Assembly (NCBI GenBank): GCA_002189035.1
Contig: CM007990.1
Coordinates: 4,464,001 to 4,528,000, forward strand
Reading direction: 5' to 3'
Source of the DNA: Utricularia gibba
Lineage: Eukaryota; Streptophyta; Magnoliopsida; Lamiales; Lentibulariaceae
DNA length: 64,000 nt
In this document: positions 2,255-59,266 of the stretch, piece after piece
How the letters are laid out: each line of letters opens with the position of its first letter
How positions within the stretch are numbered: position 1 is the stretch's first letter
Notes under the pieces: model-generated
What the model was told of the DNA's origin: nothing
Database searches by the model: none
What the model saw: the letters and a program-made list of their open reading frames with translations, nothing else
Position numbers and translations under genes: made by a program

Positions 2255-4380
2255 TTAATTTGGATATCCAGCTGCTAATTTCGATCTCAATTCCTTTCGC
2301 AGTATTTTCCCAGAAGGGCTCTTGGGAATCGCGTCGACGAAGAACACCTTCCCGATCCTCTTGTAGAACACAACCTGCTTCGATACAAACTGCTTGATGT
2401 CATCTTCCGTCACGCTTGCGCCTTTGGACTTCACGACAAAAGCAACCGGAATTTCTCCCGCGTCCTCATCCTTCATCCTGTTACGCAAGGATCATGTAAA
2501 GAAGATGGGCAGGGATTGAACAGTTCCACACGTTTTTGAGGGGAGAGGGCTTACGGGACGACGGCGGCGTCGGACACGGCGGCGTGAGTGAGGAGGAGAG
2601 CCTCCAGCTCCGCCGGGGCGACCTGGAATCCTTTGTATTTGATGAGTTCCTTGAGACGATCGACGATGAAGAGCTCGTCGTCGGCGTCGATCAACCCGAT
2701 GTCGCCGGTGTGAAGCCAACCGTCTTTGTCGATGGTTCTTTGAGTAGCCTCGAGGTCATGAAGGTAACCTGTCGTGTACACGAGTTGAGTAACCTGATAT
2801 AGAAAAAGGATGGTTTAAAGGGTGCAATGTGGGTTACCTTTCATGATCTGATCCCCGCGAATGCATATTTCTCCGGGCTGGTTCCGGCCGAGGGAAGCTC
2901 CGGTCTCGGTGTCGACGATTTTCATCTCGGCGTTTCTCACGACGGTGCCGCAGGCGCCGGATTTGATCGCCATCGGCTCCTTGGCGAAGGCCAAGCACAT
3001 CGCTAGCACCGGCCCTGCCTCGGTCATACCATACCCCTGCCCATTTTCCATTTTTCATTATTAAATTAAAAAAATAAAAGGTAGTTGATAAATCATTATC
3101 GAATATACTTCTTAAAACGAAAAACGGTATATCCAATTTTTAACATTTGTTTAAAAAAATGATAAAAAAAAAGAGATATAAATGGGGCATATTAGAAATT
3201 TCACTATCCTTTAATCATTGTATTAGAAAATTGACTGTGGGTAACCTTTTTTTTAAATAACCCTATATAAATTAGAGAAAGGAGGTGACGAAGCCGAGCA
3301 CCTACTCCTGTGATGTGCAATCTACTAATGTCTAATTATAGAATTATTTGATTTAATTAAGATAGGATGTAAATGGTACCTGGCCAAGTTTTGCGTTAGG
3401 GAACTTGATCCTGACGGCGTCTTCGAGTTCCTTGCCGAGGGGGGCGGCGCCGGACATGACGGTACGGACGGAGGAGAGGTCGAATTTGTCGACGATGGGG
3501 CTTTTGACGATGGAGAGGACGATGGGGGGACGAAGGGGCCGATGGTGACTTTGTATCTCTGGATGAGGTCGAGGAACTGGGAGATCTCGAACTTCTGCAT
3601 GATGAGAATGGCGGCGCCCACGCGGAGGCCGCAGAGGAGGACGGAGTTGAGGGAGTAGATATGGAAGAGGGGCAGGACGCAGAGCAACACGTCTTCGCTG
3701 TGGAGGTAGAGATTGGGATTCTGGCCGTCCACTTGTTGGGCGACGCTGGTGACCAGCCCTTTGTGCGTGAGCATCACGCCCTTTGGGAGGCCGGTAGTCC
3801 CGGAGGAGTAGGGCAGCGCGACGACGTCGTTGGGGTGGATTTTCACCGCCGGCATGTCGCTCTCGTCCGCGGAGGAGAGCTCCGTGAAGTGGAGGCACCC
3901 GGGAGGCGGGGAGTCGATGCAAATGACTTTTATGCCCTTATCCAAAGCGAAATCCATCACCTTCTCCACGTGGCAGGAGACGGTGATGATGAGTTTCGCG
4001 GCGGAGGCGGTGGCCTGCTTGATCACCTCCGCGGCGGTGAAGAAGGGATTCGCCATGGTGGTGATGGCGCCGATGTGGGAGGCACCCAGGAAGGTCAAGA
4101 CGAATTCCGGCGAGTTGGGGAGGAGGAGCATGATGGTATCCCCCTGATTGATCCCCAGCTGGCTCAGCCCCGCCGCCACCTTTCGCGATTTCAGCTCCAC
4201 CTCCTGGTAGGTGAAAACTTCCCCCGTGGCGCCGTTGATCAGACACGGGCGCGAACTGAACTCCGACATGTTCTCGAAGCAATAGGAGTGAAGAGGCAAG
4301 TGCTTGGGAATGTAGATATCCGGCAGCTTTGATCGGAAGATAATCTCATCTCCCTTTACAGTCATCGTCTCGATCGCCAT
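2255..4380 (-). CDS. 4CL: 4-coumarate:CoA ligase (frame broken by a 1-base loss)
   Basis: The encoded adenylate-forming enzyme converts hydroxycinnamic acids to CoA thioesters, feeding lignin and flavonoid synthesis in the cytosol. Four exons are visible: 4380-3380, 3036-2838, 2768-2555 and 2477-2255, all with GT..AG borders. The AMP-binding box I ([11 protein letters not shown]) lies near residues 192-202. The 4CL-typical FHIYSLNS segment lies near 239-246. Box II (GEICIRG) is in exon 2, and GKILRKELR near the C-terminus holds the catalytic lysine region. After residue 286 (PFVPP) the frame shifts: a C run at 3524-3529 has six bases where seven are needed. With one base added the CDS is 1638 nt (545 aa), the normal 4CL length. 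Without it the protein ends early. Either an assembly indel or a recent null allele would explain this, and I favour the indel. The family call is very secure. The substrate preference and class cannot be read. Confidence 0.93.
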
Positions 4381-4499
4381 TCCGGATCAAATATGAACAA
4401 GAACCGAGACCAGAATGTGGAAAGGGAGAAGGAATTGAGGGCACAACTGTCTTTGGGAGCTAGTTGAACCTGAAGACGAAGACCGGATGCGATGGAGTA

Positions 4500-4506
4500 T
4501 AAATAT
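4500..4506 (-). promoter_or_regulatory. Possible TATA-like element of 4CL
   Basis: Read on the minus strand this is TATTTATA-like, about 120 bases upstream of the 4CL start codon. This would place transcription start near 4470 with a short leader. It is weakly supported because the motif is not a perfect TATAAA in that orientation. Confidence 0.3.
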
Positions 4507-4522
4507 TGGAGAGAATTGGTGA

Positions 4523-4714
4523 GGTTGGTAAACAGATTTGGGTCAAAGGGGAAATTGGTGGTTGTTGTCAGGGTATTTCCGAGAATTCACATCCTCTCCA
4601 ACCTCCTTTGATAGTGCTGTGTGGTTGGTTTTGGGGTTGGTAGGTAAAGGATGTTATGCGCAGGATGCTGACTGAGTGAGAAAAATATGTGCCACGTAGG
4701 ATTCACCTACCAAC
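4523..4714 (-). promoter_or_regulatory. Cluster of AC elements (MYB sites) in the 4CL promoter
   Basis: On the minus strand ACCAACC occurs at 4529-4523 and at 4629-4623, and ACCTACCAACC (overlapping AC-I and AC-II) at 4645-4635. ACCTACCAAC also occurs on the plus strand at 4705-4714. They lie about 145 to 335 bases upstream of the 4CL ATG. AC elements are established R2R3-MYB binding sites that co-ordinate PAL, 4CL and other phenylpropanoid genes, mainly in lignifying xylem. Four in under 200 bases is well above chance and supports a lignin or phenylpropanoid role for this 4CL. Confidence 0.7.
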
Positions 4715-5273
4715 ACCAAGACCAGGAAGATATTCACCCAAAAAAAGAAAAAAAAAACATGTTCAAACTTGAAACAATGACTGAAATTGTGACATAATAT
4801 AAAATAAAACGTAATTTATGTATTTAAATTTAAAATACGTTTGATAGATGAATTTAAGTATATTAAATAAATGTATATAATAACTTTAATATAAAATAAA
4901 TTTTTTATTTTTTTTTCATAAAGAAGTATATAACAATTCAATTTATATAAAACTAATTTTAAATGAAATCATAATTACCTAATATTTATATTAAATAAAA
5001 TATTCATTTATAACTAGGATTTGGGGTTAAATGTACTAATATTCAAGCCCAGTGGCAATTCCGTACGAGCCTTGGGAAATGGGCTACAATGAATATTGGG
5101 CCTGGGATCCAACTGTTTTAGGCTGTGATAGGTTGGTTGGGAAGCCCAAATGAATTGGCCCCATTTCCGTAGCGGCATTTTGATTGAATTCCAAAGGCGC
5201 AAAACAGCATTGTAGCAAAACCATCTATGAAACCTCGGCGGTTCGCTGGGGAGCGGAGGGGAGGGGGGAGGAA
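4715..5273. other. Spacer between 4CL and the U2A' pseudogene
   Basis: The first half is AT-rich and featureless. From about 5040 to 5165 the base composition becomes mixed and there are several TGGGCC or GGCCC motifs, which look like the remains of a site II-type housekeeping promoter belonging to the U2A'-like pseudogene that follows. Confidence 0.5.
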
Positions 5274-6955
5274 ATGGTTAGGTTGACGGCGGATTTGATG
5301 TGGAAAAGTCCTCATTTTTTCAACGTCATTCACGAGGGAGAACTGGATCTGCGATGTGGCCTGGTGCCACTCGCGTTGCCATTGCTTTGCAGTTGATTGA
5401 AATCTGAGGTATTGTTTGTGTGTGGTTTTTGAATAATGCACATGGAACAAGATTGCTGTCATTGAAAGCGTTGGTGCTAACTGAGGTAATTTTGTTGTGT
5501 ATTTAGGTGTTCTTCTTGCTTGTGGACATTGTCTTGCATGGAGTTTCATGATGTAGAAACCGTTTTTTATCGTGTTGTTTTATTGGAGCGATTAGGGTGT
5601 TCACTTGGTTGCTATTATTTTGGTTGGGTACTTGCAAAACCCGAAACCCCATATTGCTTTTGTTGTTCACAGACGTTTTTTTGTTTTTTGATGCAGGATC
5701 AATTTGACACTATCGATATATCTGACAATGAGATTGTCAAACTCGAGAATTTTCCATTGATGAGCCGCCTTAGTACTTCGTTAGTTAACAACAACAGAAT
5801 TACTCGCATCAATCCTAATTTGGGAGGTACCACCTGATTTGTGATTTGGGAGCTGAAATGAGTTCTTAAATGGAAGGAAGGCGTTTAGACTAACAACAGG
5901 TTGACTAACCTGGTGGAAATTGATCCTCTCGCATCACTCCCGAAGCTGCAGTTCCTTAGTTTGCTAAACAGAAATATTACTAAGAAACCCAATTACCGCT
6001 TATATGTTATTCACGAGCTCAAGTCATTGCGCGTTCTAGATTTCAGGAAAGTTAAACAGAAGGTCAGTATGGATAATAGGTTTGTGTTTCAAGCCTCAGC
6101 TTTTTCCGCAAGCTTTTTTTTTGTCAAAATGGAAGTTGCGGTTATTTCTTGTTGCATAAACCAGGAAAGTAGTATTTTGATGGCAATGTTTCAACCCTCA
6201 AATGATCAGTGCACTATGTGAACTGTGTAGGCTAGGATCATCGCTTTGATTATTGTGTACATTTATGATTGTGTTTAATATCTGCTTCAAATGGCAAGAG
6301 GAGCGGCTTGAAGCCCATAAGCTGTTTGCTTCTGAGGAAGCTGAATACGAAGCTAAACGAGAATATGTTTAGACATTTGTACCCAGCGAGGTTCCTAGCA
6401 CCCAAGATTTGAACACAGAGGAACCAATTACTAAACCAGCTGCCCCAACACCTGAGCAGATTTTAGCTATCAAGGTATTGTTGACCATGCTAACGCTTCC
6501 TTTATCATCTCCTTTTACGTTCTATTTGAAAGTTGTGTGATTTGTCTCTGTGAGTTCTAATTTCATTTTACTTCCATGCAGGCCGCCATTGTTAACTCAC
6601 AAACTCTTGAAGAGGTGGCTAGGCTTGAACAGCTAAATTTCATCTCCTAGTCTACATGGGAAGTGAAACATAAACTTATCATTTCCTTGTCATTCATCAT
6701 ATCCAGGCACTAAAATCAGCCCAACTTCCAGCTGATCTCAATCTCATCGACACTGCTAGCACACCAAAAGCTGAAACCATCCGACAGGATACCGATACTA
6801 AAGGTACAAAGGGGGAAGCTAAAAGCCAGGAAACTGAAGCAGGGGATGAGGCTGATGAAATGGAACAGGTACACTATATGTGCTTCACGTATTCCCACTG
6901 CATATGAGCAACATCTTCATCATTCATTTGATTGATCTCTTTCAGGATTAAGGTG
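5274..6955 (+). pseudogene. Decayed U2 snRNP protein A' (LRR) copy, introns retained
   Basis: The intact protein is a leucine-rich repeat component of U2 snRNP that binds U2B''. Recognisable blocks in order are MVRLTADLMWKSPHFFN from 5274, DQFDTIDISDNEIVKLENFP in 5697-5826, NLVEIDPLASLPKLQFLSLL near 5905-5965, a lysine/glutamate-rich stretch around 6300-6480, and AAIVNSQTLEEVARLEQ near 6585. The first exon loses frame after ELDLR. The EFLPKLHTLVL part of the LRR is reduced to unreadable remains near 5860-5890. There is a TAG at 6370-6372. The splice donor expected after ...RLEQ (about 6634) reads CT instead of GT. The introns survive, so this is a DNA-level duplicate and not a retrocopy. A fully working gene is unlikely. 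Confidence 0.8.
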
Positions 6956-8049
6956 GTCCTCATATCTCCACCTCCCGTATTGAACGTAAAGCATCCTTGT
7001 TGCACTTCACGAACGTTGTAGATGGTGTCTTGTCTTCTGCAAGTTTTGTAGCACAGCAAAAGGCTCTAGCTTGTCTTCTGCAAGCATCGCAGGTGTCAAG
7101 CATGTGCGGGACGGGAAGACGATACCCCGACTTCTCTCAGATTACTTCGCATAAACATCGCCTCTTATGGGATCGGAGATGGCTTCCTGGCGATCGGAAT
7201 CCTGAACATGCACCATGTTGCGGAAGACTGAAAGCTTCAAGAACTTGTCTGCCTTCTCCGCGACCTATTCCGGCACCTCCATTTCCGGCAAGCTCTTACT
7301 TGACTTTCTCAATTGCAGGTGTGGTGCGCCACCGCGAACAGCCCGAATCCTACAGATAACGTTACGATCCCTGCCGCCGTAAAAACCGGCGCATTGAAAG
7401 CAAACTCGGAATCCGATGGGCTGTCTGAATGTCGGTGTTCACACACTGAAAGCGAATTCGGATTATTTTCTTACTGTGGTTTCACGCGTTGGCAGAAGCG
7501 ATGGGAGGCGGGGGAGTAAGGCTGCTGATCGGAAGCGGGAAGCCTCGCCGTGGAGCGGCTGCCACTGACATTCTTACCCCTGGAATTACCATGAATGCAA
7601 GGCAAACAAAGCAGACGTCCGTGACAAAGGATTATAACTCACCGGCGAAGGTATTCACACGCGCCGCCGTTCTCAAAGCCACTTCCGATTGACTACTATT
7701 CATCCTTACCAACTTCAAACCTCCCAAGGTCTCCATTGTAATTAATTATATACAGAATTGCAGCGAGAGCTACGCGTCATGAAATCATAAGCACACGTCA
7801 CCACAGAAACTTCTGCATACGCCACGTTTTCTCTCTCTCTCTCTCTCTCTCTCATATTCTAATCGTTGAACCTTTCACCGGATACTTTGGATTTATCAGA
7901 AGCTAACCCAGTTTTCCGGTAAGCCGGAACTAACTTGGTGTGCTGGCGTTTCCCATTCAATAAACTTGATCTGAATCTTCATTGGGATTACACAGCCATA
8001 CGTACCGTACACGCACAGTCAAAGCTTCAGTTGAATCCTCCATTGTCAC
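6956..8049. other. Unassigned region with a (CT)n microsatellite
   Basis: Mixed base composition with several short open frames (for example 7489-7692 on the plus strand, 67 codons). None has a recognisable motif, and their frames overlap without a coherent splice model. It may hold degraded coding sequence downstream of the U2A' copy, but I cannot name it. A (CT)11 microsatellite lies at 7831-7852. The part nearest 8050 is the 3' flank of the minus-strand mitochondrial carrier. Confidence 0.4.
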
Positions 8050-10092
8050 CTAATGGAGCTCCAGACTCTTTTTCATGGCTTCATAGACCAGGTACGTGAT
8101 GCTTGCAGCAGGGATGACCTTCAGGAGATTCGGGAAAAGCCCTTTGTAGAACCCTCTAACACCTTCACGCTTGTACGTCCTCCCAAACACCTCATGCATA
8201 CTACTCCTGCCGCGTTCAGCTTGCATTCTGCACATCACTCGAGAATGAATGGCAACGAAGAGTTCATTGATCGCAGGTGGAAATCTCACTGTTACCATTT
8301 ACCTCGTTCTGACAACCTGCAGTGGGTAAACACATGTAGCTCCCAAGGCGCCTGAAACTGTCCCGCAACTGATTTGCGTCAGCGGCCCAGGATCTGGAAA
8401 CAAGCACAAGCTCTGTGAAAGGGCCAAGGAGGAGAATTGAAGAATGTGTATACCTTCGTTATGAAGAATGTATTTCTTGGACACTTCTTTCAGTGTTTCG
8501 TATGCAGCTAGATCGATGCCGGCGTAAGGTATGATCCCAAGAAGAGATGGCAGCAGCCCCTTGTAAAGAGCTCGAGGACCCTCTTGAACTAAGATGTCTT
8601 TTGTCAGTTTCCCTAAACTTGGAACGCCCCCGCCATCACAAACATGTGTTTGCAGGCGAGTTTTGATGAGATCCATCGGATAAATGGCGGTCTGCGCCAC
8701 TGCTCCGGCGAGCCCTCCTGCACAGAGGAGGCTTATGCTTCCTATACCTCCATCACCATCTCCCAGAACGGATTTCAGCTTTTCAAAAGTGTAGAACTTT
8801 ATGGCGCTTTCAGGGCCAACCTTCAGCACATTTAGCCCGTTGCCTCTGTAAAAACCAGGAAACCCACCTTGCTTCCAGATGCTTTTCACTGCACTGCTGA
8901 CGGAGGCGTTTTCCGTCTGTACTTGCAATACTACCTTCAGGCGATCGAAGGGCGCAGTTACTGTACGCGAAGCAGCACCAGCTACTCCTCCAGCGATCAA
9001 GTACTTGGTGGCGTTGACGTGCTTGCTGACTTGAGGAATCACTGCCTGCTCGCCGATGTCCACCAGATACACCCTTTCCCAGTACCGGTAGATGTTCTCC
9101 ATGGTAACCTCGTGTGGATACAACAGCAGAAAATCCCTCCACTCTTCAAATGTAATGATCCCATTGTTGTCTTTGTCGACATGTTCCACGAAATGAGCAA
9201 GTTCATCGTCATTCAGCTCTATGCCTGCACAAGAACTGCCTCCACTTATAAGACGATAAATGAAACTAAGCAGCCAAAGAGTATCCTCAAAAAGAGCTCA
9301 ACAGTATGGAAGACATGAAGCTTGTGCCAAAGAATCCAGCTTACAGATAATAGGTTGGTATCTAAAGACAAGTGTGCGTTTGCTGGAAAAGAAAGTGATT
9401 CAGCTCATTCCAACAGGAAGGGGAAGAAACAAAGCTTGCTTAATGATCAGAGAAGCTGATATAAAACATGGAAAGCCACTGAGATTTCACTAAGCATGAA
9501 TAAATTTGTGCTCCTTGCGGTCATAATGAAAATCCCCATGTTGAATGTCGATTCTGCCGTTTCACAAGCCATGAATCTGAACTAAAACCCAATGTACACA
9601 TACATATGGCACAAGGAAATTCTTACGGCTATTTCAGCCAAGATAATGTACCAGCTTTGGCCAGAGCATTCCCCAGCTCCTCCGGCTGTATAGAACCACT
9701 GTGCTCCACATCAATCGCCTGAAAAATCGTATACAACTCCAGCTCCTTGTCATCCATATACTTTCTAAACTCCTGATAATCAACTCTACCATCTCGATTT
9801 GCATCGCAAACTTCCAGAAGCTCCTTAGCGAACTTGTAATCGGCAGGGATTTGCATCGCAGATAACCCCTTCTGGATCCGGGCAGAATCCAGATAACCCA
9901 CATTATCAGAATCGAAGAAACCAAACAAGCCTTGCAATCTCAACTCTCGCTCCTCCTTTGTCTCCTGCAGAGCCAAGAGCACGTGCTCCAGCGCCACTGG
10001 CTCGGGCTTCGGGTTCTACCGGGTCGGGCTTCGGGGTCAGTGGGTTCTGCAGCAGTCGTTGAAGCGATCGGAATCTCCACTCCCGCGGCCAT
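8050..10092 (-). CDS. Calcium-dependent mitochondrial ATP-Mg/Pi carrier (SCaMC/APC type)
   Basis: An inner-membrane carrier that exchanges ATP-Mg for phosphate under control of cytosolic Ca. Exons are 10092 (proposed start)-9652, 9224-8454, 8393-8303 and 8227-8050. The N-terminal half has EF-hands: the loops [35 protein letters not shown] and [13 protein letters not shown]. The C-terminal half has three mitochondrial carrier repeats with [16 protein letters not shown] and YPLQVVRTR signatures, and it ends MKKSLELH. The start needs care. The conserved frame begins [16 protein letters not shown] but is preceded in frame by a TAG at 10018-10016. The only good ATG (10092) is in another frame, and one extra C near 10004-10013 would join them. 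The gene is closest to plant APC1-3 carriers. The function call is firm, the N-terminus is not. Confidence 0.9.
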
Positions 10093-10514
10093 TTGAACCA
10101 GACAATGACTAATTGACTACGGCCGCCACTAAAAAAATGAATTCTTGAATCTGAGTTCCATGTACCCCGCACGAAAACCTAGATAAAAAAGAATAAAAAA
10201 CAGATTAACTCTTCTTGGTAAGAGGACCGGACAAGACGGTCGCTTTGATACAAACGTTTGAAACGAAATATGCATCCAAAAACAAGTTCGAAAAGATTGA
10301 AATTCCAAGACAAATCTTCAGAATTCCCAAATCGCACAGAACCCGCGTTCTTGAACAGCAACCCTTTGTGACTGGATTCCATATTTTACAAGAAAAATAT
10401 GAACTTGCTCTTAATTCTTGATGTGTTGAGATATGTACACCAGTGTTCACACACACCAATACATCTAAAATCTTCTTAAGAATCCCAAACTCCAAGATCT
10501 CCGACTTGCTCGTG
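10093..10514. other. Spacer between the carrier and the small gene
   Basis: This holds the 5' flank of the mitochondrial carrier and the 3' flank of the small minus-strand gene at 10515-10628. No other coding signal is seen. Confidence 0.5.
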
Positions 10515-10628
10515 TTAGTCCTTGGGATGCAGTAGGACTCTTGTGAGGGCCTGGAAAGCAATGGAAGCCATTCTCGACTTGATCTGCCCTCTCCTCGGCA
10601 CAAGCCTCATGCTGCTGCCACTCATCAT
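10515..10628 (-). CDS. Tiny basic protein of 37 aa (putative)
   Basis: A 38-codon frame (with stop) starts ATG ATG AGT on the minus strand and encodes a short basic product containing RLVPRRGQIKSRMAS near residues 8-22. It ends in HPKD. PRRGQIK-like cores occur, as far as I recall, in small uncharacterised plant proteins of 40-70 residues, so this may be a real member. I cannot name a function. No signal peptide or membrane segment is seen. A palindromic TATA box (10702-10709) lies about 75 bases upstream, which is the right distance for a short leader. An overlapping 73-codon frame (10465-10686) starts too close to that TATA box to be preferred. The product could instead be a non-coding transcript. 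Confidence 0.45.
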   Translation of the reverse strand: MMSGSSMRLVPRRGQIKSRMASIAFQALTRVLLHPKD

Positions 10629-10701
10629 CGTGTAATGATCCATCCGAGCGTACAGAACCAGTTACTGTATTTGTCACTGCTGGCATTCTAAAAGTTCATT
10701 C

Positions 10702-10709
10702 TATATATA
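10702..10709 (-). promoter_or_regulatory. TATA box (TATATATA core)
   Basis: The palindromic CTATATATAG stretch reads as a TATA box in either direction. On the minus strand it would place transcription start near 10675, giving a leader of about 45-50 bases before the 37-residue frame at 10628. Confidence 0.5.
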
Positions 10710-10991
10710 GAGAGACACGGGGACACGCGGGGGCAACTTGACACGATCCGGTTGAAAGTCAAGAACTGCGGGCATTTGATCTGTCTTGAGATCAATGTGA
10801 ACTGAGGACAAGAATTTGACCAAATGGCTGTTCCAAGATTTAACTCATAAAAAATTTAAAATATTAAATTAAAATAATTATTTTATTCTTTATAATGTAT
10901 TGAATTTAAGTAAATTTATTAGCAAAATGATTCGATTTATAATAATTATATTTTCATTTATTTATTCATTTGTCTTCTTTTTTTTGTGCGA

Positions 10992-15836: not shown

Positions 15837-15844
15837 TATAAATA
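15837..15844 (+). promoter_or_regulatory. TATA box of the PB1-domain gene
   Basis: TATAAATA lies 68 bases before the ATG at 15905, which implies a leader of roughly 35-40 bases. Confidence 0.6.
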
Positions 15845-15904
15845 TCGGTGAATCCGCGCTCTGAGTTCTGTCAGGAAAAATTTGGATATTTTTCAGTTCG
15901 AACT

Positions 15905-22701: not shown

Positions 22702-22975
22702 TGATCTAGTAAGCTGTATGAATGCTTGTCTCAATGAACCAACATCTCTTTGCAGACAGAATCAACCTATCAAACTCCATTGTAATGATCTAGTAAATTG
22801 TATGAATGCTTGTCTTAATGAAACAGCATCTCCTGGCTCTCCATTCTATCTACACCAGACAGAATCAACCTATCAAACTCCATTTTAATGATCTAGTAAA
22901 TTGTATAAATGCTTGTCTTAATGAAACAGCATCTCCTGGCTCTCCATTCTATCCACACCAGACAGTAGCAGCCTA
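22702..22975 (+). repeat. Tandem repeat, about 103-bp unit, overlapping the diphosphatase 3' end
   Basis: Three direct copies start with TGATCTAGTAA at 22702, 22786 and 22889. The second-to-third spacing is 103 bp. The first copy is shorter (84 bp) because it lacks a CTCCTGGCTCTCCATTCTAT-like part. The third copy runs into the minus-strand coding sequence, so its part from 22918 on encodes the last residues and stop codon of the diphosphatase. The first two copies lie in the 3' flank. Confidence 0.85.
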
Positions 22976-23864
22976 TCATTGAAAAGATCAACATGTCCAA
23001 AGGCATCTGTCCCTGGGGGCACTCCAGTGCTGCTTCGAGAACACGGTGGTGTACTCCTTGCGAATCCACAGCGTATCCACCTTTGTGATCATGTCCGGCG
23101 AGGCAAACCTTTACGCAGTCGTATCGGTGTATTAGTTCCAAAACTTCATCGTAGTTCCATAAGAGAGCTTCATTGGAAGATGAGCGAGGCTCCAATGGTA
23201 GGTGGCAGCAGATCACTACTTTCTGGTTTAGATATGTTGCGTCTTCAAGTACATTCTGAAGCCACACCATCTGTTCTTGTCCTATGCCTCCATTGAACAT
23301 CACAAACCTTCTTTCTGGCCCGAAAAGTCCATTCGGGCTATTCTTGTCTGAATTCGGATTCCTCTCATTAAGAATCTCAAGGGCCTTCACTGTGTTGGGA
23401 TGATCCTTGGGCCAACCTATGGCACTGATATCGTAGCCATCGAGAACGACGAATCGAAATTCTGATACGGGGGAAAAATCGTAGTAGGCTTGACCATGAA
23501 TGTTCAACAAAGGAAGCAGCTTTTCACGAGGAAGATTGTAGAGACAGTGGTTCCCAATAAGATGATAAACAGGGCCATCAAAAGTCATGAACTCAGATGC
23601 AATCTTCTCCACAGCTGCTCGAGAATGGGCTTTGGGGCAGAAACCATCTACAATATCTCCAAAGTTAACAGCAAACCTCAGCCTTTTCTCATTCCAATTC
23701 TTCACTGCTCTTTGCAAAACAAGCGCGCTGTGCCGGTAAAAGCGAGGCACACCAAGAAAGGAACGGCCATCCGGTATATCTGCGTACTGAACATCGGATA
23801 TAATACCAAACGAAACAAGAGGCTGCTTTGCCTGTGCACCCACAACCCCCTTCATGTATGCCAT
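22918..23864 (-). CDS. Manganese-dependent ADP-ribose/CDP-alcohol diphosphatase
   Basis: A calcineurin-like metallophosphoesterase (ADPRibase-Mn family) hydrolysing ADP-ribose, CDP-choline and related nucleotides. The coding part is a single exon. Metal-binding motifs are visible: GIISDVQYAD (D-x-H/Q), FGDIVDG (GDxxD), IGNHCLYNLP (GNH), VVICCHLPLEP (H) and LAGHDHKGG (GHxH). The start chosen is MAYMKGVVGAQ at 23864. A 5' leader intron (about 24172-23919, AAG|GTGTGT to TGATGCAG) is likely. Near the C-terminus the frame is lost at a G run at 23015-23019: ECPP needs six C on the minus strand, but five are present. One added base gives the family ending HVDLFNDRLLLSGVDRMES and a stop at 22920-22918, for 315 aa. 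As read, the protein continues in the wrong frame to 22893. Confidence 0.87.
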
Positions 23865-27920: not shown

Positions 27921-29465
27921 ATGATCTTGAATAGTTTCATCTTCGTCTTCTTCTTCTTCATCACGCCGCTGTATTTTTTGCTCTTCTTTTTGAGAAAAAA
28001 CAATGGTTTCGATAAAAGCTTGCCGTCTCCGCCGAAGCTCCCAATCATCGGAAATCTGCACCAATTGGGAGCGAAATCGCCGCACAGAGGATTACTCTGT
28101 CTTTCAAGAAAATATGGCGATCTCATGTTCCTCCAACTGGGTTCTGTGCCTACTTTAGTCGTTTCTTCGGCTAAAATGGTTCAGGAGATATTCAAGAACC
28201 ATGATCTTACTTTTTCTAGCAGGCCCTCGACGTATGCGATAGAGAAGATGACAAACAATTACAACATTTCAGCAGCGCCCTATGGCGAGTACTGGCGGGA
28301 TGCCAGGAAAGTCGTGGTTTTGGAGCTCTTGACTGTGAGAAAGGTGGAGTCTTTCGAGCGTGTTCGTGTGGAGGAAGTTGGGTTCATGATGGATGAAATA
28401 GCAAAAGCTTCTAATTCAGAAGTTAACTTGAGCTCCCTGGCGTTCCGACTAGCAAACACACTGATTTCTCGGGTGGCTTTCGGCCGGAGAAGCGACCCCG
28501 AATTTGATGGAATCATGAAGAAGGTGCATACTTTGTCGTCGGAGTTCAACATTTCTAATTACTTCCCATTTTTGCGTTGTCTGAATAAGATCAATGGAGT
28601 GGACAAAAGGATTGATCAGTGTAACAAAGAGCTTGATCTGTTCATGGATCGGGTGTATTCCGAGCATCGTAGCAGATCGAAGCTTGATTCTGATTGGGAC
28701 ATCGTAGATGTGTTGCTTGGAAATCACAAGGAGCCTCACCGTTCATCCAACCTCACTCTGGAACAAATCAGGGCAGTCCTCCTGGTAAACAATTCTACAT
28801 TGTTGTTGTGATACCTTGTGCTTTCATTACAAGAGCGCTGTCTGTACGCAGGATTTGTTCTTTGCTGCAACTGATACTTCATCTGCTACAATCGAGTGGA
28901 CAATGGCTGAGCTCGTGCGAAATCCTGAAACATTAGACAAACTCCGGCAAGAAGTTCGTGAAATCGGAGCTGGAAAACAAGCAATACAAGAGGAGGACCT
29001 GCCAAAGCTCACCTACCTCAAGCTTGTAATCAAAGAATCACTCAGACTTCATCCACCAGCGCCATTGCTGCTACCTAGAGAGGTCACTGAGACCTGCTCC
29101 ATTGGTGGAAAGTGGGTAATACCAGAGAAAACAAGGGTGATCATCAACGCGACGGCATTGTCAATGAACCCTGAGTACTGGAAAAGACCTGAGATATTTT
29201 GGCCAGAGAGATTTGCTGATAGCAGGATTGATTACAGGGGACAGCACTTTGGGTATCTACCCTTTGGGGTTGGAAGAAGGAGCTGCCCGGAACCAACTTT
29301 GCCATGCAGCTAGTGGAGCTGGCAGTGGCTAATCTTGTTTTCCGATATGACTGGGAGCCACCGGTGGGGACAAAGCCTGAGGAAATCGATATGGAGGAGG
29401 AATTTGGGATTGTGATGCACAAAAAGGCTCCCCTCTGTCTAGTAGCTAAACCTGTACTTGTCTAG
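27921..29465 (+). CDS. Cytochrome P450, CYP71 family (second copy, 1-base loss at heme loop)
   Basis: The second A-type P450 has the same two-exon structure as its neighbour (27921-28784 and 28852-29465). It has an N-terminal anchor rich in phenylalanine, SLPSPPKLPIIGNLHQLGAK, an I-helix FAATDTSSATIEWT, KESLRLHPPAP, WPERFAD and FGVGRRSCP. Directly after the heme cysteine the frame breaks. Around 29286-29290 one G is missing relative to CCCGGGAACC, so translation stops at 29313. With one base restored, exon 2 is 615 nt, identical in length to that of the minus-strand copy, and the protein ends DMEEEFGIVMHKKAPLCLVA plus KPVLV. Close similarity and divergent orientation point to local duplication. 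Either the copy is newly inactivated or the base is an assembly error. Confidence 0.9.
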
Positions 29466-29604
29466 GGGTCACATTATACTTGCTGAGTCTTGTGAATGAA
29501 CGTTCGCAAAACGCAAGCCTTGACCTCCTTTGTATGCTTGAAACCTATTAGAATCAAACCAAGCACAAAAGAAGTACTAACTTTGACGTTTACTGCAATT
29601 TATA

Positions 29605-29806
29605 CATCAACCAGAGCATCAGCACAATCTGGGAATCCCATAAGCATAATAGCAAGGATTCCTTAAAGTATGCATCAACCAGAGCAACAGCACAATCTGA
29701 GAATCCCATAAGCATAATAGCAAGGATCCTTAAAGTATGCATCAACCAGAGGATCAGCACAATCTGAGAATCCCATAAGTATAATAGCAAGGGTCCTTAA
29801 ATTATC
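29605..29806 (+). repeat. Tandem repeat, about 67-bp unit, three copies
   Basis: CATCAACCAGAG begins copies at 29605, 29673 and 29740. Each contains a AGCACAATCTG-type core and a CATAAGCATAATAGCAAGG-like segment. Copies differ by a few bases, so the array is not brand new. It sits 140 bases after the second P450. The long frame read on the minus strand across it (29590-29790) is a product of the repetition. Confidence 0.85.
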
Positions 29807-31158: not shown

Positions 31159-34100
31159 ATGATAATGATTGCAGAATCTTACGCTATAAGTCACAATGCA
31201 TCTGATGTTTTTTTGGCTGACGGTTCCACCGCTGAACCTCCTCAGAACATAGCTGGCTCCGCTAGCGAGAGCTTTTTCAATACAACACCAAACTGAAGAT
31301 GATTCAGGGGTTTCTGCTTCAAATGTCAGCAGTGCAGACCATGCTGCAGTGTATCCTGACGAGCAGCGCATGGTTAATTCCTATGGTGTTAATGAAAATC
31401 TTGCTGTTCTTGCCAATTTTTCTCTAGAATCATCTCATGTGGAGGGCTATGACCCAGGCCTGAACAATAATGCCACTACTTTGCAAGCGAATGAAGCTAG
31501 TGCAGCAGAGAATGGAGTTGCATCTTCTGATCGCACAGGTTCTGCTGCGATGCATCAGCCATTGGATGAATCTGGTACACATAAAGTTGATTCTAGTCTG
31601 TTATTTTTTTTTTATCTCATTACAGTGGTTTATATTCTTTAAAAAAATCTTCTTTATTGTTGAACACATTGGGCATTTGCTTTGTCTATTTTTTTGATAA
31701 TATGTACCATGGATATGTGCGAAGAGGTGATCTTGCATTATTCACAGGTCTTTCAGCAGAGGAAGAAAGATTATGGAGTGTTGTCACGGCAAATTCACTT
31801 GAATTTGGTGCCTGGACTGCTTTAATTGAAGAAACTGAGAGAACGTCTGAGGTACCCTTACCAATTTTCATATGTTTGTTTTCATTTATCGTTTGGCTTA
31901 TGTCGTTCCTCTGCTTCCAAACTGACTTGTTAATTTTTCCCACTTAAAGGGGAATATATCGAAAATCCGGAAGGTTTATGATGCTTTCTTAGTGGAGTTT
32001 CCACTGTGCTATGGATACTGGAAAAAGTACGCTGATCATGAGGCGCGGCTCAGCTCACCAGATTGTGTTGCTGAGGTTTATGAACGAGCTGTTCATGGGT
32101 TACTTACTCTGTTGATATGTGGCTACACTATTGTGCCTTTGCAATTTCTTCTTATGGAGATCCTGAGGCGATAAGAAGGTAAATGTTGCTTTTATCTGTT
32201 CACCTAGTTATCTTCATCGTTCTGGGTGCTTTTCTAAATTCAACTTTCTTTATTTCCTCGGATTTCGAGTCTTGATGCCTCGGTGACTTGTCTTAGAATG
32301 TGGAAAAGGTTTCATCAGCTACTCACCCAACCCCTCATTTAACATATCTGCGCATTAGGATTAGAAATATGCTCTTGAATGAGGTGTTGTCAACGTGGTG
32401 GTCTAATTCTCAGTGCTTCTATGAAGCTGTTGTAGCATACTCCTCCTCTGAGAAGCTGTATAAGATGTCACAGAAGGTGGTAATGATTCAGCTGGAATTC
32501 CCGAGTCTTCCTTTTGCGTTTGTTTTCAACTTTCATAGTATCCACTTTTCATAAATGGTTGATGCAATGAGGTCCTGACCAAAGCTTTATTTGTTTCAGG
32601 CTATTTGAAAGAGCATTAGCATACGTTGGCTCTGATTATTTATGCTTTCCTATCTGGGACAAATACATTGAATATGAAATTTCCCTTCAAGCCTGGAATC
32701 GTGTTGCTGCAATCTACACAAGGGTATTAGAAGTTCCAAATCAACAGCTGGATCGTTTTTTTGAAGGGTAATATATTAGAAGAGTTCATTTGTCCATGTT
32801 TCTTTGTTCTTCTTTATCCATTTTGATGTTTTTTGGTGAATTCAGCCTAACATAATATATTGGTCCTCTTTGGCTGGTGAACGATAAACATTCCCCTAAT
32901 GTGGTCCTCATTACTCATTTCTTTTTGGATTATTTTAGCTCATTCTCTTAGGTTTCCTGCGATTTCACACCTTATATGAAGTTGAAAAAATGTTTTTCCA
33001 TGATGGAGTTATATTTTTCTGATTATTCTGTTACAGATTCAGGGAACTGGTTGCTAGTCGGCCTCTTTCAGATTTGCAAACGCCTGAGGAAGCTTTGGCT
33101 GCATCTGATGTGATTAGTGAAGGTGTTAATAACAAGGATGCGACCCCTCCTGATGCCATCGAGCAATCATCCAAAGCTGCAAATGAAAGCTTAAAAGATT
33201 CTGAGGAGTTGGAGAAGTATATCGCCATTAGAGAAGAGATATACAAAAAGGCTAAGGATTCTGATTCGAAGATTTTTGGTTTTGAAACAGCTATTAGGAG
33301 ACCCTATTTCCATGTGCGCCCTCTCAATGTCTCTGAGCTCGAAAATTGGCATAATTATCTTGATTATGTCGAAAGTGGAGGTGACTTCAATAAGGTACCC
33401 GGGTTGTTTTTTAAAGAGATTTCCGTTGTTTCTAATCACATGGCTTTAGACGCCTTTGCTATGCACTGATTTACAGTTAAGTAATATCTGCCACGTCATT
33501 TGCTTTATTGGCTAAACCATTGGAGAAGATGTTTTAAAACGGGGTATTGAACTTGGACTAAAGCATGGACCTTCCATTTGCTTTATATGAGGCTAAGTAC
33601 TTAAATCTCTCATTTTTTGAGTAGATTTCTGGGCTCCAAATGTCTACTATGGTTTATAGCTCCAATGTTATGCATGCAGGTGTGTTCTTATCTTCCTAAC
33701 CATCTGTCTATCAGGCAAGGAGAGCCCCTCAAATATAGGGGCCCTCCTGTTCCGCCAGCGGCGTACCTTGTTAAAATAATTCTCTTAATACATTAATTCT
33801 TCCTTGCAATAGCAAAAAGAAAAATTGAATTTGTTAACCAATGGGGTCTTCTGGCCTTGCAGATTGTGAAGCTGTATGAAAGGTGTCTAATAGCATGTGC
33901 AAACTATCCTGAGTATTGGATACGCTATATTTTGTGCATGGAAGCATCTGGAAGTATGGAGCTGGCAGAAAATGCACTGGCTCGTGCCACCCAAGTGTTT
34001 GTCAAGGTTAGTGCTCTATTTTTGTTCATAATCCATCTCCGGTATTGATGTTAAATTTCTTGGAAATTGCCAACTTCATTAGTTTCTCAAACCCTTCCTT

Positions 34101-36254
34101 TATTATTTAATGATATGAGAATCAGCATGCCGTTATGTAACTGCCACAGGTCCATGTATGTGATTTCCTGTTTTTATTTGTTTCATGAACAGAGGCAACC
34201 GGAAATCCATCTCTTTGCTGCACGTTTTAAGGAGCAGCATGGTGACATATCTGGAGCGCGGGCATCCTATCAACTTGTGCACACTGAGATTTCCCCGGGG
34301 CTTCTGGAAGCAATCGTCAAGCATGCAAACATGGAAAAGCGCCTTGTAAAATTGCTTGAGTCAAGCTGCTTTATTTTTTTTTAGGGATGATTTTCATGTA
34401 TAACTAGGTCTCGTCTTTTAACTGCCCAGGGAAAGCTTGAGGATGCGTTTTCTTTTTATGAGCAAGCACTTGTAATTGAGAAAGGGAAAGAACACTCACA
34501 GACATTGCCCATGTTGTATGCTCAGTATGCACGTTTTGTGTATTTGGTATGTGTTGTCCATAACAATGATGCCTTTATTTTTGGTATTTCCTACTTCCTG
34601 TCATATGGACTCAGACTTTCTGATATCTAACTTCTGCTCTCTTTGAAGGTTTCTGGAAATATTGAAAAGGCTAGGGAGATTCTTGTGCAAGGTGTTGATA
34701 GTGCACAGTTATCCAAACCTCTTTTAGAGGTTTGTATCTGCTCTCTTTTAAGCTTTTTTTGTCGCTGCTTCCTACTTCTATTTGGTATAGAAATGTTGTC
34801 TACTTGATTAATTCATCCCTTTCTTTCCGTATGTTAAAAGAAACAGATTTGGGAATATTCTTTGCGTTGGATGCTCTTTATCCTCCCCAAAATGATGACT
34901 CTGTTGTCTTGGGAAGCGTTGACACTGTCAAGTGGCAATGCTTCTTATGCCTTGAGTTACTTTCTGTTAATATTTCAGTGTTGTCGTTTTTAGGCAATGA
35001 TTCACTTGGAGTCTATTCATTCACAATCAAAACCAGTGGAGTATTTAGATTCATTGGTCGACAAATTCTTGGCTTCAAGTTCTGAAAACTTTCAAAGTGC
35101 ATGTAATGAGGAGAAAGAAGAGCTATCAAGTATTTTCTTAGAGGTAATTGCCATAAAGCATCTATTCTACATTCTTATGACCCCTGAGTTGAACTATTGA
35201 TTGGCTTTGGCAGAATCTGCATCTTGTAGCCAGGCTTTCAGTCATCATCATTGAATTCCTTTGATCTCTAGTAATGGGGATTAGATTCTCTTTCTTGCAT
35301 ATCTTTCTTTGATGTGCGTCATTTAGCTCTGTGTCTTGAATTTTTGTGTGTATCTTGTTCTCTAGCCTTCATTGTTGTTCAATATGTCCTTGGTATGCAC
35401 TTCCTTTTTTTATGTCGAGTTATGTGATGTTTACATGACCGGCTCTCATGATAAACATGGTTTTCTTACAACCTGCAAATTTTGGAGCTGCAGTTCTTGG
35501 ATCTCTTTGGAGATTCTAAGCTCATTAAAAAGGCTGACAACCGACATGCAAAACTTTTCTTGCGCCACAAAAGCACATCAGGGTCAAAGAAGCGACTTGC
35601 AGAGGATACTTTATTTTCTGATAGAAGTAAATACGCAAAATCTCATACCCCAGTCTCTGGTTCTTCAGCTGTGGGCTCATATGCCGCTACCCAAAACCAA
35701 TGGTCTGCGGGTTATGCTGTACAACCTCAGGTTTGGCCTCAGGCTCAGCAGTGGACTCCAGGCTATCCCCAACAGGTTTTGTTTTACCCCTATTGCATGT
35801 CCTTACTTTCAGTCATTATTTGATGTCAGTAACTTCATCATCCATGTTCACGTCCTATATCAAAATGGTTCCCATATTGACTCTCTTAAAAGGAATGTCC
35901 ACGTATGAGTTTGTTGCATTTTTTTCCCTGTAAGGCGGCCTATGGTGCATATGGAGCAAGTTATGTCCAACCCCAAATGCAGGCATATGTTCCCCCAAGT
36001 GCCGGTGCTTACGGAACCTATCCTCCCACTTATCCATCCCAGGTTACATAAACTCGTGTTTGAGTAGGTTCTGATTGCCAGTAGGACATGATATTTTTTT
36101 TCATGCATAATTTTAGTTTACATCATTAACGTTTTTTTTTTAACAGGCGTTTCCTCAACAAGTTTATGCACAGTCTGCAAGTGCTACAACGTTCAGTTCA
36201 GCTCCGCAGCCTGGTGCTGCCACGGCCCCATCGTACTATACCGGTTACTATTGA
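31159..36254 (+). CDS. PRP39: Pre-mRNA-processing factor 39 (PRP39, HAT repeats)
   Basis: The nuclear U1 snRNP-associated protein acts in 5' splice-site selection. Arabidopsis PRP39a affects flowering through FLC. Exons I can place are 31159-31574, 31748-31851, 31950-32178, 32600-32767, 33037-33394, 33863-34006, 34193-34345, 34430-34546, 34649-34729, 34994-35143, 35494-35775, 35935-36042 and 36147-36254. HAT repeats are clear ([52 protein letters not shown]). The C-terminal tail is rich in Y, Q, P and G ([14 protein letters not shown]). Two indels break the frame. One lies at the T run 31272-31276 in the poorly conserved N-terminus. In the other a G is missing at 32097-32099, where [16 protein letters not shown] is expected. 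All other junctions are in frame. These look like sequence errors in a real gene. Confidence 0.88.
33718..33748 (+). repeat. Short hairpin in a PRP39 intron
   Basis: Arms 33718-33729 and 33737-33748 pair at 11 of 12 positions around a 7-base loop. It is GC-rich within an otherwise AU-rich intron. The stem is too short for a plant microRNA precursor. Confidence 0.5.
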
Positions 36255-36787: not shown

Positions 36788-37679
36788 TCACTTCCACTGA
36801 GCTTTAGTTAGATTGAAAAACCTGTCTTCCGGTGAAGCTCTCACAGATTTTTCGAAGTAACGATTTGCTTTTTCCTGATCATGGTGCAAAGCCCATATGA
36901 GTTTAGCGTATTGCGACAGTGCGTCCCCGTCTTCTGGATTCGCGAGGGTCGCCCGCAATGAGTACTCTTCTGCTCTCCTGAGGTCACCCTTTACCTGTTC
37001 CATTTGATCTTGGATTCAGCACATATCTGAAAATATTGGAAATGATAATCCACGGAACTAACCTGATGCAGAAAGCTAGCATAGTTTTGCAGTGCCAGCG
37101 GATTCTTGGGATCCTCCTCCAGCAGTCTCCTGTAATGATCCTCCAGGTCATTGCTTTTATCATCATCGCTCTCCTGATTGAATTTCCAGTGGCTTCTTCC
37201 TCCACTGCGGCCGCCACTTCCACCATCGTCAACGAAACTGCCTGCGCCAAGCCCCATCGCCAGATACATTCTTCCTTCAACGTCCGAGCTATCATTCTCA
37301 TTCTTCAGCCCAGTTTCCCCTACCGAAGCCGAGGTAATCGGTCGCTGGAACCAGTCTTGAGCCTCTTCTTCTTCATTAGGAATGGAAGGTATTGCCTCCA
37401 GAGCCCCCCCTCCATGCTTTCCAGCATATGAAGCATCAGCCAACTGATCCAAGTTCCCCTCAGACTGAACCCGCCGGAATCCGCCACACCCCCCGTGCGT
37501 TTCGATCACAGACGGTGACCGGAAGGGTCTGTGCGAAGCGTGTGCCCCCCTGACCTGGAGTGCCAAATCTGGCCATGAACCGGACTCGGTGTGTGTAGGA
37601 GTAGCTCCGTCGTGGAGCCGTCGGTGAGGGATGGAATAAGAGAGTTCAGTAGCGGCGTCGATGAGCTCCTTAGCATCAT
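36788..37679 (-). CDS. TPR-like superfamily protein
   Basis: A plant tetratricopeptide-like protein of unknown function. Exon 1 is 37679-37063 and exon 2 is 36994-36788. The N-terminus MMLRSSSTPLLNSLIPSL resembles the start of a plant family of stress-related TPR proteins. The middle is low-complexity and glycine-rich (DDGGSGGRSGGRSHWKFNQ). The C-terminal half has TPR-type helices: DLEDHYRRLLEEDPKNPLAL then NYASFLHQVKGDLRRAEEY, and NPEDGDALSQYAKLIWAL. The frame is broken at a C run at 37545-37550 (six present, seven needed). With one base added the N-terminus joins AHASHRPFRSPSVIETHGG in frame. An alternative is a shorter protein starting downstream, but no good ATG exists there. Confidence 0.8.
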
Positions 37680-48403: not shown

Positions 48404-54448
<6,045 letters not shown>

Positions 54449-56181
54449 AAGCGATACAGATACCAATCTTGGAAGCAAAGAATTGAAGGGTCTCAATGAC
54501 GATTAGTAGAACGATGAGAGCGACTCCTTAAACGATGAATTAGCGAAAAATCGAGAACCGTAAAGGGGTATTTCACCGTCTGGCAATCGAAATTTTGTCA
54601 GGTATGCAGCCTAGTGACAAGCCACGAAACGTTGCAAGGTTGAATACCTGCGCATGACAACAAAATCATCTGCATTACAGAAAACGAGATAGAATATCGC
54701 CAACTTTAGCTGGCGATTATGGGAAAACACACCAAAAAAATCACGTCAGAACTCTCTTGTATCTCACTCTCACGTGCGTAGTCTTTATCATCTTTCCCTG
54801 TACTGTTGTCCATTACAATTGAAAAAAAAAAAAAAAAAAAAACACTACCCACTTTCCGAAACCCCGTAAAAGACCGACCTCCGCTTCGTTCCTCCCAAAT
54901 GGTTCGACGAAAGTGCCTCAATTTCCGCGAAACAAGTACAAAGTGTCTCCCAAAGCAGAACAGAATCAAGCTCAAAAGAAAGAGATGACGGCGCCCGCCA
55001 CCCACCAACCCACGGCTGTCAGAGCTGATGGGTGTAGAATTTCCGACGGAACAGAGCCGAAGATCTACCTACATGCGAAGAACATCCAAACCACGAGAAT
55101 GTGTCACCATAACGAAGCGAGGCGCAGGTGTCTCCTCATCTTAAATGGGGATTTGGTTTCATTATTATCAACAATTTCCAACGCAATTGCCACTCACAAA
55201 TCCCTCTCATTTCTCATTTTCTGAATTATAATAATATTATTAATATTATATTTTAATATAGACACAAATTGGAATACACTCATCATTAGGCCTCCGGGGG
55301 GGGGGGGGGGGTGGGGGGAATCAATAAAACAAAGCAATGGCTGCCGCATTTATTTGAGAATGTTCTGAAAAGGATGTGAACGAACTTGAAATTGAGTTAA
55401 ATTATTTTTATAATAAATTAAATCGATATACTAATTTTTAATTACATTGTATAATATTACACAATAAAAAGAATTATCTAAGTGAATCAATTCATTTTGA
55501 AAGCTAACAAACTATATTTTGAATCTGAAATTCATATTATATAGAATGTAATCAGTTTTGGGATTATGTGCATGAAATGTATTATACTAAAGTTTAATAG
55601 AAAAAATTATATATTATAAAGTATTAATGATTATATAATTTAATATTATAATATAAATATATTTTTCAATAGTTAAACAATGAATAATAAATTTTTTCCA
55701 ATTAATCTATTATTTATTTATTAAATAAAGATAAACAGAAATTTAATAATTTATTAAAAAAATTATTTGCATTTTTAAAAAAATCCGAAATTTGAAAGTA
55801 TATGAAACTTAAAACATTATTATGTGGGCCCATTCTTATTCCCTTGAATTGGTGGGGGCCACGGTTGACAGAAACTCGCTTTTTTTTTTATAGCCCAAGG
55901 CCGCAGACCATCCCTTGGTCTGAATTTTCCAGTATTTTATGGATTATTTGATTTTCAAAATAATAAAAAATCACGCAAATTATCAACATCGACTATACTG
56001 CGACTTTTAAAAGGGCCGGCTGCTAGTCCGTCACATCTAGGAATAGACCCGCGTAGACGAGAAGAATGTGGCGGGATGTCGGCCGTCGATCAGCACGTGC
56101 TGAGTGGTGTTTGGTAGAGGCTGGCCCACCACTGGGTCTTGATAGAGATTGGTTAGCTGAACTAGAAGGCTATATGATAGG
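54449..56181. other. ABCC leader, then AT-rich spacer with a poly-G run
   Basis: Near 54648 there is a 3' splice site (ATGCGCAG) consistent with a leader intron of the ABCC gene. A poly-A tract lies at about 54823-54841. An uninterrupted run of 16 G at 55296-55311 is followed by T and six more G. From 55380 to 55830 the DNA is very AT-rich. No gene is supported. Confidence 0.5.
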
Positions 56182-56250
56182 TGGGCCGAGCCGGTCTGGA
56201 CTGAGCCGGGCCCTGTTGGATCGAAAGTGTGTATTGGGCCTGAAGGCCCA
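56182..56250 (+). promoter_or_regulatory. Site II (TGGGCC) cluster upstream of WDR70
   Basis: TGGGCC at 56182-56187 and 56235-56240, and its complement GGCCCA at 56245-56250, lie 75-140 bases before the WDR70 start codon. Such TCP-type elements are typical of plant housekeeping promoters. Confidence 0.6.
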
Positions 56251-56324
56251 GTGGGACTCCCTTGCCTTGCTGTAAAAAGCCCGACTCGGCGAGTGCGGGA
56301 GAGGAGGAGACGGGAAGGGGATCC

Positions 56325-59266
56325 ATGGAGGATGAGGGGGAGATATACGACGGTGTTAGGGCTCAGTTCCCTCTCACTTTCGGGAAGCAATCCAAGTCTC
56401 AAGCTCCTTTGGAGGCTATTCACAACGCTACACGTCGCGCCGGCCGTGCTGATTCGCTTGCCGATTCACAGAAATCTGTGGTTGCTGGGAAAGCGAATGG
56501 GTTCCCTGCTGTCTCCACTTCCTCCGTAGATTGGCTCCAGTCGTTCAAGGTTTCTAACCCTAAATCTTCGAGGACGCGTGTTGTGCAGGGTGACTTAGTT
56601 GGACCTTCTCGCCAACCGGATGGTGATTCTGGTGGGATTGGGAAGCCTCGTAGGCGCGAGTCGGTGCATGAAGACGATGAACCTGTAGTTGGGCCGCCTA
56701 GACCGCCGGAAGGAAATGATTCAGAGGAGGAGAACGAGCCCGTCATTGGGCCTCCTAGGCCACCACCTGACCGAGAGGGCGTGATTGATGGTGGTAGTGA
56801 TGATGATGGAACATTCATTGGGCCTCCGAGACCACATCCTATTGGAGATGGCATGCTTGATGATGATGATGAAGGTAGAACCTTCGTTGGCCCGTCTAGA
56901 CCGGATAAAGGTCAACTGGACTCCGATTCGGATGAAGATACTGCGGAAGAGAATGACAATTCTGGTTATCGGCTTCCAATTAGCAACGAGATTGTTCTCA
57001 AGGGACACACCAAGGTAAAAGCGTTGGGCTTTCTTGTTCCACGTTCTTTACTGAATTGAATACGTTTAAACGCCTAGCGAATTTGTCTCTGATTAGTTAG
57101 TTCAACCCTGGCCGTTATATTATGTAACGTTGTAAGGTTGACGTAATCATCTTGTTGGCAGGTGGTTTCAGCTCTTGCTGTGGATCACTCGGGATCTAGA
57201 GTGTTATCTGGAAGCTATGACTATACAGTTCGAATGTACGATTTCCAAGGCATGAATTCTCGACTTCAATCATTTAGACAGATTGAACCATTTGAAGGCC
57301 ACCAAGTTCGTCGTTTGAGCTGGAGTCCTACTTCTGATCGATTTTTGTGTGTGACCGGATCAGCCCAAGCTAAGGTGAGCTGGAGTCCTACTTCTTGTAA
57401 TTTGAGGTTGTTTTCACTGCAAGGCTATTTGACTGGGCAGATGCTGTGCTGATATTTTGCAGATTTATGATCGTGATGGGCTTACGTTAGCTGAGTTTAT
57501 TAAAGGAGATATGTATATTAGGGATCTCAAAAACACAAAAGGCCACATATCAGGATTAACATGTGGAGAATGGAATCCTAAAGCAAAGGAGACAATCTTA
57601 ACTTCATCTGAGGATGGTTCATTGCGAATATGGGATGTAAATGACATTCAAAGTCAGAAGCAGGTTAGCTTCGTGATGCATTGTTCCTTGATAATCTTAT
57701 TGCAGACTTATTCAAGCACACGCCTTAATGTGTGAATTGTTTTTCTCTCACTGTATTGCCTTTAGGTTGGTTAATCTACAGATAATTATGACATTCAGTT
57801 TCTCCTTTTATGTATTCCTTAATCTTGAGTGTTGCCCTTTAACAGGTTATCAAGCCTAAACTTTCTAGGCCTGGAAGAGTCCCCGTAACCACATGTGCGT
57901 GGATCATGAGGGAACTCGAGTTGCAGGTGGTGTGGGTGATGGTTCTATACAGGTAAGATTACAGGTGTTTTCAACGCTATTTTCACCATGATGAGACGTT
58001 GAAATTTGTTCCTAGATATCTTTACTTTTAGCAACCGTTTTTTCAACGAGCAATCTTCTTCTTCCTGTCATAGGTTTGGAGCATAGCTGGGTGGGGTGCC
58101 AAGCCTGTCATTTGTGCTAGCAATTCTCATACGGATGATATTACTGGACTTAAGTTCTCCAGCGATGGACTAATTATGTTGTCAAGGAGCTTTGATGGTA
58201 CGCTCAAGGTAGCATGCTTCTCGCTTGCATTGGCATTTATTCGAACGTTGTCTTAGTTAAACCATCTTCTAGCTCCTATCATTTGGATAGTTTGGCATGT
58301 CAAGAGAACGTCGACTTAATCTAAGAACAATTGTACTTGTGCTGCTAGGTTTGGGATCTACGAAAAATGAAGAGTGCTATTCAGACGTTTGATGGCCTCC
58401 CAAACAATTATGCTCAGACAAACGTTGCATTCAGCCCAGACGAGGACCTGTTTGTCACTGGAACATCAATTGAGAAGGATAGGTCCACCGGGGGCTTCTC
58501 TGCTTTTATGACAGAGCGAAGCTGGAAATGATATCAAGAGTTGGAATTTCTCCCACATTTAGTGTAGTTCAGTGTGCATGGCATCCAAGGCTAAATCAGG
58601 TACATGGGACTTTCTCTGTACATGCACAGTGTTTCCTCCCTCACAGTTTATCATATGAGGCGTGCATCATCCTCTGTACAGATATTTGCTACAGTGGGGG
58701 ATCGACACGAGGGAGGGACTCACATCCTATATGATCCAACCATCAGTGAGAGAGGTGCCCTCGTGTGTGTTGCTCGTGCCCCAAGAAAACAGTCTGTTGA
58801 TGATTTCCAGGCACAGCCTGTAATCCACAACCCCCATGCCCTGCCAATGTTCAGAGATCAGCCCAGCCGTAAGCGTCAGCGTGAGAAGATCTTGAAGGAT
58901 CCCCTCAAGTCCCACAAGCCAGAGCTCCCATCAACGGTCCAGGACATGGTGGAAGAGTTGGCACCACCAAGGGGAGTTTGCTCACGCAGTACTTGCTCAG
59001 GGTGCTCACTCTACTCAACTCTTTCTTTCACCTTGCATATAAAAAAGAGAGAGAAAGCAGCAGCATTTGACTAAACCCTGTCTCACTTTCCTTTCCAGCA
59101 AGGTGGTATGCTCAAGGAGACATGGATGGATGAAGATCCCAGAGAAGCCATTCTCAAGTATGCCGACATCGCAGCGAAAGACCCCAAGTTTATCGCCCCT
59201 GCTTACGCCCACACTCAGCCTGAGCCCGTCTTTACAAAGTCTGATTCAGAGGAAGAGGACAAGTAG
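56325..59266 (+). CDS. WDR70: WD-repeat protein 70 (WDR70 / gastrulation-defective-1 homolog)
   Basis: A nuclear WD40 protein. Animal and yeast WDR70 works with the CRL4-DDB1 ligase in histone H2B ubiquitination at DNA breaks, and the plant role is little known. Exons are 56325-57014, 57162-57374, 57463-57663, 57846-57952, 58074-58208, 58349-58599, 58682-59001 and 59099-59266. The N-terminal 200 residues carry five GPPRP-type repeats separated by acidic spacers. WD40 blades follow (KGHTKVVSALAVDHSGSRVL, SEDGSLRIWDVNDI). The C-terminus has KRQREKILKDPLKSHKPELP and ends EPVFTKSDSEEEDK. Three single-base losses break the frame: GG at 57901-57902 (CAWDHEGTR expected), near 58495-58499 (STGGxLCFYDRAKLEM expected) and GG at 58936-58937 (TGPGHGGRVGTTKGSL expected). 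Each restored base gives an exon length in frame, for 695 aa. These are probably sequence errors in a working gene. Confidence 0.9.

Follow-up and report, generated by a model that had tools for sequence, protein, structure and literature searches.

In a 64-kb window of Utricularia gibba DNA (contig C2:4464001-4528000, the whole stretch analysed here), conserved genes are interrupted by changes of reading frame, which raises the question of whether these genes are dead in the plant or broken in the assembled sequence only. We re-translated the nine sites concerned in all three frames. At every one of them (9/9) the conserved protein resumes in the frame reached by the loss of one base (−1), and all nine shifts fall inside exons without a usable intron. 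This three-frame reading confirms what an earlier note on this DNA had claimed, namely one base lost relative to the conserved frame at each of these sites.

Seven of the nine breaks are secure, meaning that they are located between adjacent conserved residues with no space for an intron. In the 4-coumarate:CoA ligase (4CL) gene, on the minus strand, the base is missing from a run of six C (3524..3529, FVPP/IVLS, the slash marking the break), and tobacco 4CL2 (5bsm/5bsw) matches both pieces end to end, the second one beginning at residue 284. The gene for an ADP-ribose/CDP-alcohol diphosphatase-like metallophosphatase, also on the minus strand, is broken in a C5 run (23015..23019, LECP/PGTDAFG), and its homologue 2nxf aligns as far as the residue that immediately precedes the break. 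The coding end and the stop of this gene are repeated downstream in a tandem array (22753-22978, period 103, 2.2 copies). In the second P450 (27846-29462) the break, at 29287..29291 on the plus strand, lies within the heme-binding motif RRSCP/GTNFAMQ; the piece before it matches residues 292-438 of 5ylw (ferruginol synthase), stopping at Cys-Pro, and the piece after it matches residues 434-490 of the same protein, resuming with Gly, a weak match if taken alone. The first P450 (24753-26341), which is unbroken, lies on the opposite strand and forms a divergent pair with the second, their 5' ends facing each other; another tandem array (29601-29805, period 67, 3 copies) directly follows the second gene.

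The PRP39 break (32097..32099, plus strand) also separates adjacent conserved residues, the domain HAT_PRP39_N being matched over 29-76 in one frame and then over 78-97 in the next. The PRP39 paralogue is intact at this position, where it reads CATGGTGTTACC and has CATGGTG in place of the CATGGG of the window. Since a T stands between the Gs in the paralogue, it may be a T rather than a G that was lost. The remaining three secure breaks belong to WDR70 (56325..59266, plus strand, 8 exons), the only copy of this gene in the genome. They are located at 57901..57902 (CAW/DHEG), in a G5 run at 58490..58494 (STGG/LLCFYD) and in a CCC at 58927..58929 (ELP/INGPGHGG). The earlier note had put the third WDR70 break at 58936, about 7 bases off. 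When the three bases were restored, the gene encoded a protein of 695 amino acids up to its final stop with all introns in phase, as had been expected of a family-length product, and human WDR70 (6zym) was colinear with the restored protein across all three breaks. Apart from the three breaks, this single-copy gene is undamaged.

At the two other sites the frame change is real and the lost base can be placed only to an interval. In the EF-hand mitochondrial carrier gene (9995..10060, minus strand) the shift falls between the start Met (10092) and the conserved stretch (10015). A paralogue of the carrier (C1:2838793-2839248) is open in one frame across the corresponding stretch, and its uninterrupted N-terminus confirms the break. 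In the TPR-repeat gene (37519..37652, minus strand) the shift occurs between MMLRSSSTP and SPSVIETHGG, with the run 37545-37550 as a candidate; this is the least secure of the nine sites, with neither a conserved anchor nor a paralogue spanning the break. As for the genes previously described as clean, GT47 is indeed unbroken, and ABCC and PIRL (LRR) are open in the exons that were examined. We found no break in the DUF868 gene or in the first P450 of the window.

We then looked at the same type of lesion across the assembly (100,091,633 bases in 516 contigs), with a purpose-written spliced alignment of protein to DNA that has states for frameshifts, stops and introns. In HSP70 (18 distinct loci, 31,194 coding bases) there were ten −1 shifts, no nonsense codon and no insertion, two intron-edge artefacts being set aside; one of the ten, common to contigs C241 and C304, was read as +2 when aligned to a distant reference, and comparison with its sister gene shows it to be −1. 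The four breaks of HSP90 (one on C451, two on C255 and one on C414) are all −1, as are the single breaks found in actin (C1:8287632, in the C6 run of KVVAPPERKYSVW), in CesA, in the second PRP39 copy and in a carrier paralogue on C317. P450 was a poor family for such a survey, being too divergent; several of its shifts lay close to the usual intron and were not counted, and the roughly four that were kept are all −1. Outside the window, each of the 22 breaks is a one-base loss, with no gain among them, on many different contigs and irrespective of gene function. With the window included, the direction is −1 in 31 of 31 cases, for which the probability is about 4e-6 even if deletions are taken to be twice as common as insertions. 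The single direction of the nine breaks, together with the same pattern in independent loci, thus goes beyond chance.

In HSP70 there is about one break in every 3 kb of coding DNA, and in HSP90 the density is similar; CesA shows fewer shifts, and its short exons hide them. The nine breaks of the window fall in roughly 24 kb of coding sequence by our own rough estimate, close to the HSP70 rate. The window is therefore not special, its break rate matching that of the rest of the assembly. The two PRP39 copies (C451:486800-489400 and window positions 31750-34600) carry exactly one −1 shift each in the part compared, at different places. We also observed that the lengths of several contigs, namely C1 (8,500,000), C2 (6,192,500), C409 (2,492,500) and C505 (3,452,500), are divisible by 500, which gives the impression that these contigs were trimmed at round positions.

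The nature of the lost base was best seen where a close intact copy exists. In such comparisons the run was one base shorter in the broken copy: G3 against G4 in L052 and L053 (97% local identity), C2 against C3 in L054 and L052 (99%), C4 against C5 in the HSP90 loci L071 and L074, and C3 against C4 in L015 and L014. Most losses fit G/C runs, clearly so where there is a close copy; several may correspond to T runs (HSP90 on C255 and CesA on C244 fit these), to wobble bases or to positions that cannot be placed. Where the only paralogue is a distant one, the missing letter falls at a wobble position and its identity cannot be read. Most sites are compatible with the statement that nearly all lie in short G/C runs, some may be T-run or wobble sites, and the context was partly assigned rather than observed. 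It is likely that nearly all losses occurred in G/C runs. About 1% of coding bases lie in G/C runs of at least 4; the probability that so many losses would land in them is very small, a figure that deserves little weight as the run was often picked by eye. No G/C run of at least 8 was found in 266 kb, for about 2.4 expected, which is a weak result.

Real pseudogenes gather stops, larger indels and amino-acid changes. We measured dN/dS for pairs that include broken copies. Between the two copies of PRP39, each of which has a break, it was 0.10 (0.11 after the break); it was 0.02 for the HSP70 pair L042/L045, 0.016 for the HSP90 pair L071/L074 and 0.19 for the young tandem mitochondrial HSP70 pair L052/L054, whose divergence is low. 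The broken copies compared remain under strong purifying selection. Only one nonsense codon was seen, an in-frame TAG (LDLGS*KELR) common to two tandem P450s about 10 kb apart, L038 (C213:2207876-2209126) and L039 (C213:2217241-2218485). The mixed lesions and relaxed selection that characterize pseudogenes are not found here: the lesions are −1 only, and dN/dS in the pairs compared is about 0.02-0.1, with 0.19 in one pair.

Altogether, these data point to a fault of the assembly. We estimate at about 0.93 the probability that all nine breaks result from consensus errors in a PacBio long-read assembly left uncorrected, which is most likely the one of U. gibba. All over this assembly, the consensus would skip a single base roughly every 3 kb of coding DNA, in most cases at a short run of G or C; at each of the nine sites the DNA of the plant would still have that base, and the genes are probably intact in vivo. 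What leads to error and not to dead genes is that essential genes (HSP70, HSP90, actin, CesA and both PRP39 copies) are broken together, with no insertions and with low dN/dS. Homopolymer undercalling, already proposed in the earlier note, is supported in the same way by −1 losses that recur across the assembly in genes that are not jointly dispensable. The assembly fits the U. gibba PacBio product of HGAP and Quiver: the published genome was built with HGAP from 88x coverage and has an N50 of 3.4 Mb (PMC5793159), and its Unitig_8 measures 6.8 Mb (PMC8333044). The published assembly has 581 contigs according to a review, versus 516 in the genome surveyed here. Three points count against consensus error: one loss per 3 kb is a high rate for an 88x Quiver-polished assembly, the survey includes the probably real mutation of C241/C304, and several losses are possibly of T-run or wobble type.

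The C241/C304 lesion was studied further. The same HSP70 frameshift is present in L048 (C241:15098-19294) and L049 (C304:2234766-2238962), which are about 15 substitutions apart, the site in C304 being near position 2236266, and C241 appears to be a second haplotype of C304. Comparison of these two contigs could not separate error from mutation, as both carry the frameshift. The 97% identical sister gene L043 was more informative: from CACCTTTGAGG to CACCATGAGG, TTT is changed to AT beside an unchanged G5 run, meaning that no homopolymer base was lost and that a loss in the G5 run is ruled out as the cause of the shift. From these sequences the lesion is probably a true mutation. It would therefore be an overstatement to call all breaks errors, since at least one lesion outside the window looks real.

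The breaks could more generally be real mutations, the genes being recent pseudogenes produced by deletion-biased mutation in a shrinking genome. The Lentibulariaceae are described as fast-evolving and as having contracted genomes, and the seemingly genuine HSP70 lesion and the TAG common to two tandem P450s go in the same direction. We nevertheless consider this very unlikely, since it would require simultaneous breakage in roughly half the HSP70 loci, in several HSP90 genes, in actin, in CesA and in the two copies of PRP39, with almost no nonsense codons, no insertions and dN/dS near 0.02-0.1, and since WDR70 would have three breaks and be otherwise undamaged. Even less probable is a variant in which the −1 losses would be real and U. 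gibba DNA would be subject to a strong and continuing bias towards the deletion of single bases, disrupting many copies of housekeeping genes, function being kept by intact alleles or by correction of the frame at expression. The published truncation of U. gibba DCL3 was considered as a possible victim of the same error and set aside, as its authors report RNA-seq and 5' RACE support for it (PMC8333044).

Misread gene structure, through tiny or non-canonical introns or alternative starts, could account for some of the breaks, and the carrier and TPR sites do lie in poorly conserved N-terminal parts, an AG immediately preceding the conserved carrier frame. At seven sites, however, the residues that flank the break are conserved neighbours, which leaves no space for an intron, the carrier paralogue is open through the site, and the WDR70 introns are all in phase with no extra intron needed, so that we regard this explanation as highly improbable. 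That the cell decodes the frames correctly, through programmed or transcriptional slippage at the runs, is scarcely credible: many sites are short homopolymers and hence plausible places for slippage, but there is no apparent common motif, the base, the length of the run (some of only 1-3 bases) and the gene vary, and genome-wide slippage decoding is not known in plant nuclear genes.

Consensus error thus being the preferred reading, it has consequences for the use of this assembly. Roughly every second HSP70 locus examined is broken and, if the rate holds, gene models, lists of lost genes and selection scans made from the assembly include many false pseudogenes. A single −1 shift with no other lesion and a low dN/dS could serve as a filter for them, and gene losses in U. 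gibba should not be deduced solely from its genome sequence.

This type of error has already been described for PacBio data, and the present case is an instance of it, extended to a whole assembly. In actinobacteria, the PacBio consensus is prone to omit G or C in short homopolymers, which breaks reading frames (PMC4849082). The U. gibba breaks are alike in that one base is gone, mostly at what look like short G/C runs, normal genes are frame-broken and there are no matching insertions; they differ in that the genome is a plant nuclear one, that some sites appear to be T runs or single bases and that they are known here from the assembly sequence alone. In one bacterium, E. faecium, 561 single-base homopolymer deletions remained after three rounds of Quiver (PMC4888979), and an HGAP/Quiver assembly of P. 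falciparum contained, before Illumina correction, about 25,000 indels versus 1,800 substitutions (PMC5964635). Both resemble our case in the use of HGAP and Quiver, in the large excess of indels over substitutions and in the genic frameshifts, although in P. falciparum most of the errors affected long homopolymers and TA repeats, whereas the runs in U. gibba are of 2-7 bases and mostly G/C. The effect of long-read indel errors on protein prediction is also discussed, with reference to Watson and Warr 2019, in PMC12007338; there, as here, indel errors give genes the look of pseudogenes, in human assemblies in their case and in a plant in ours.
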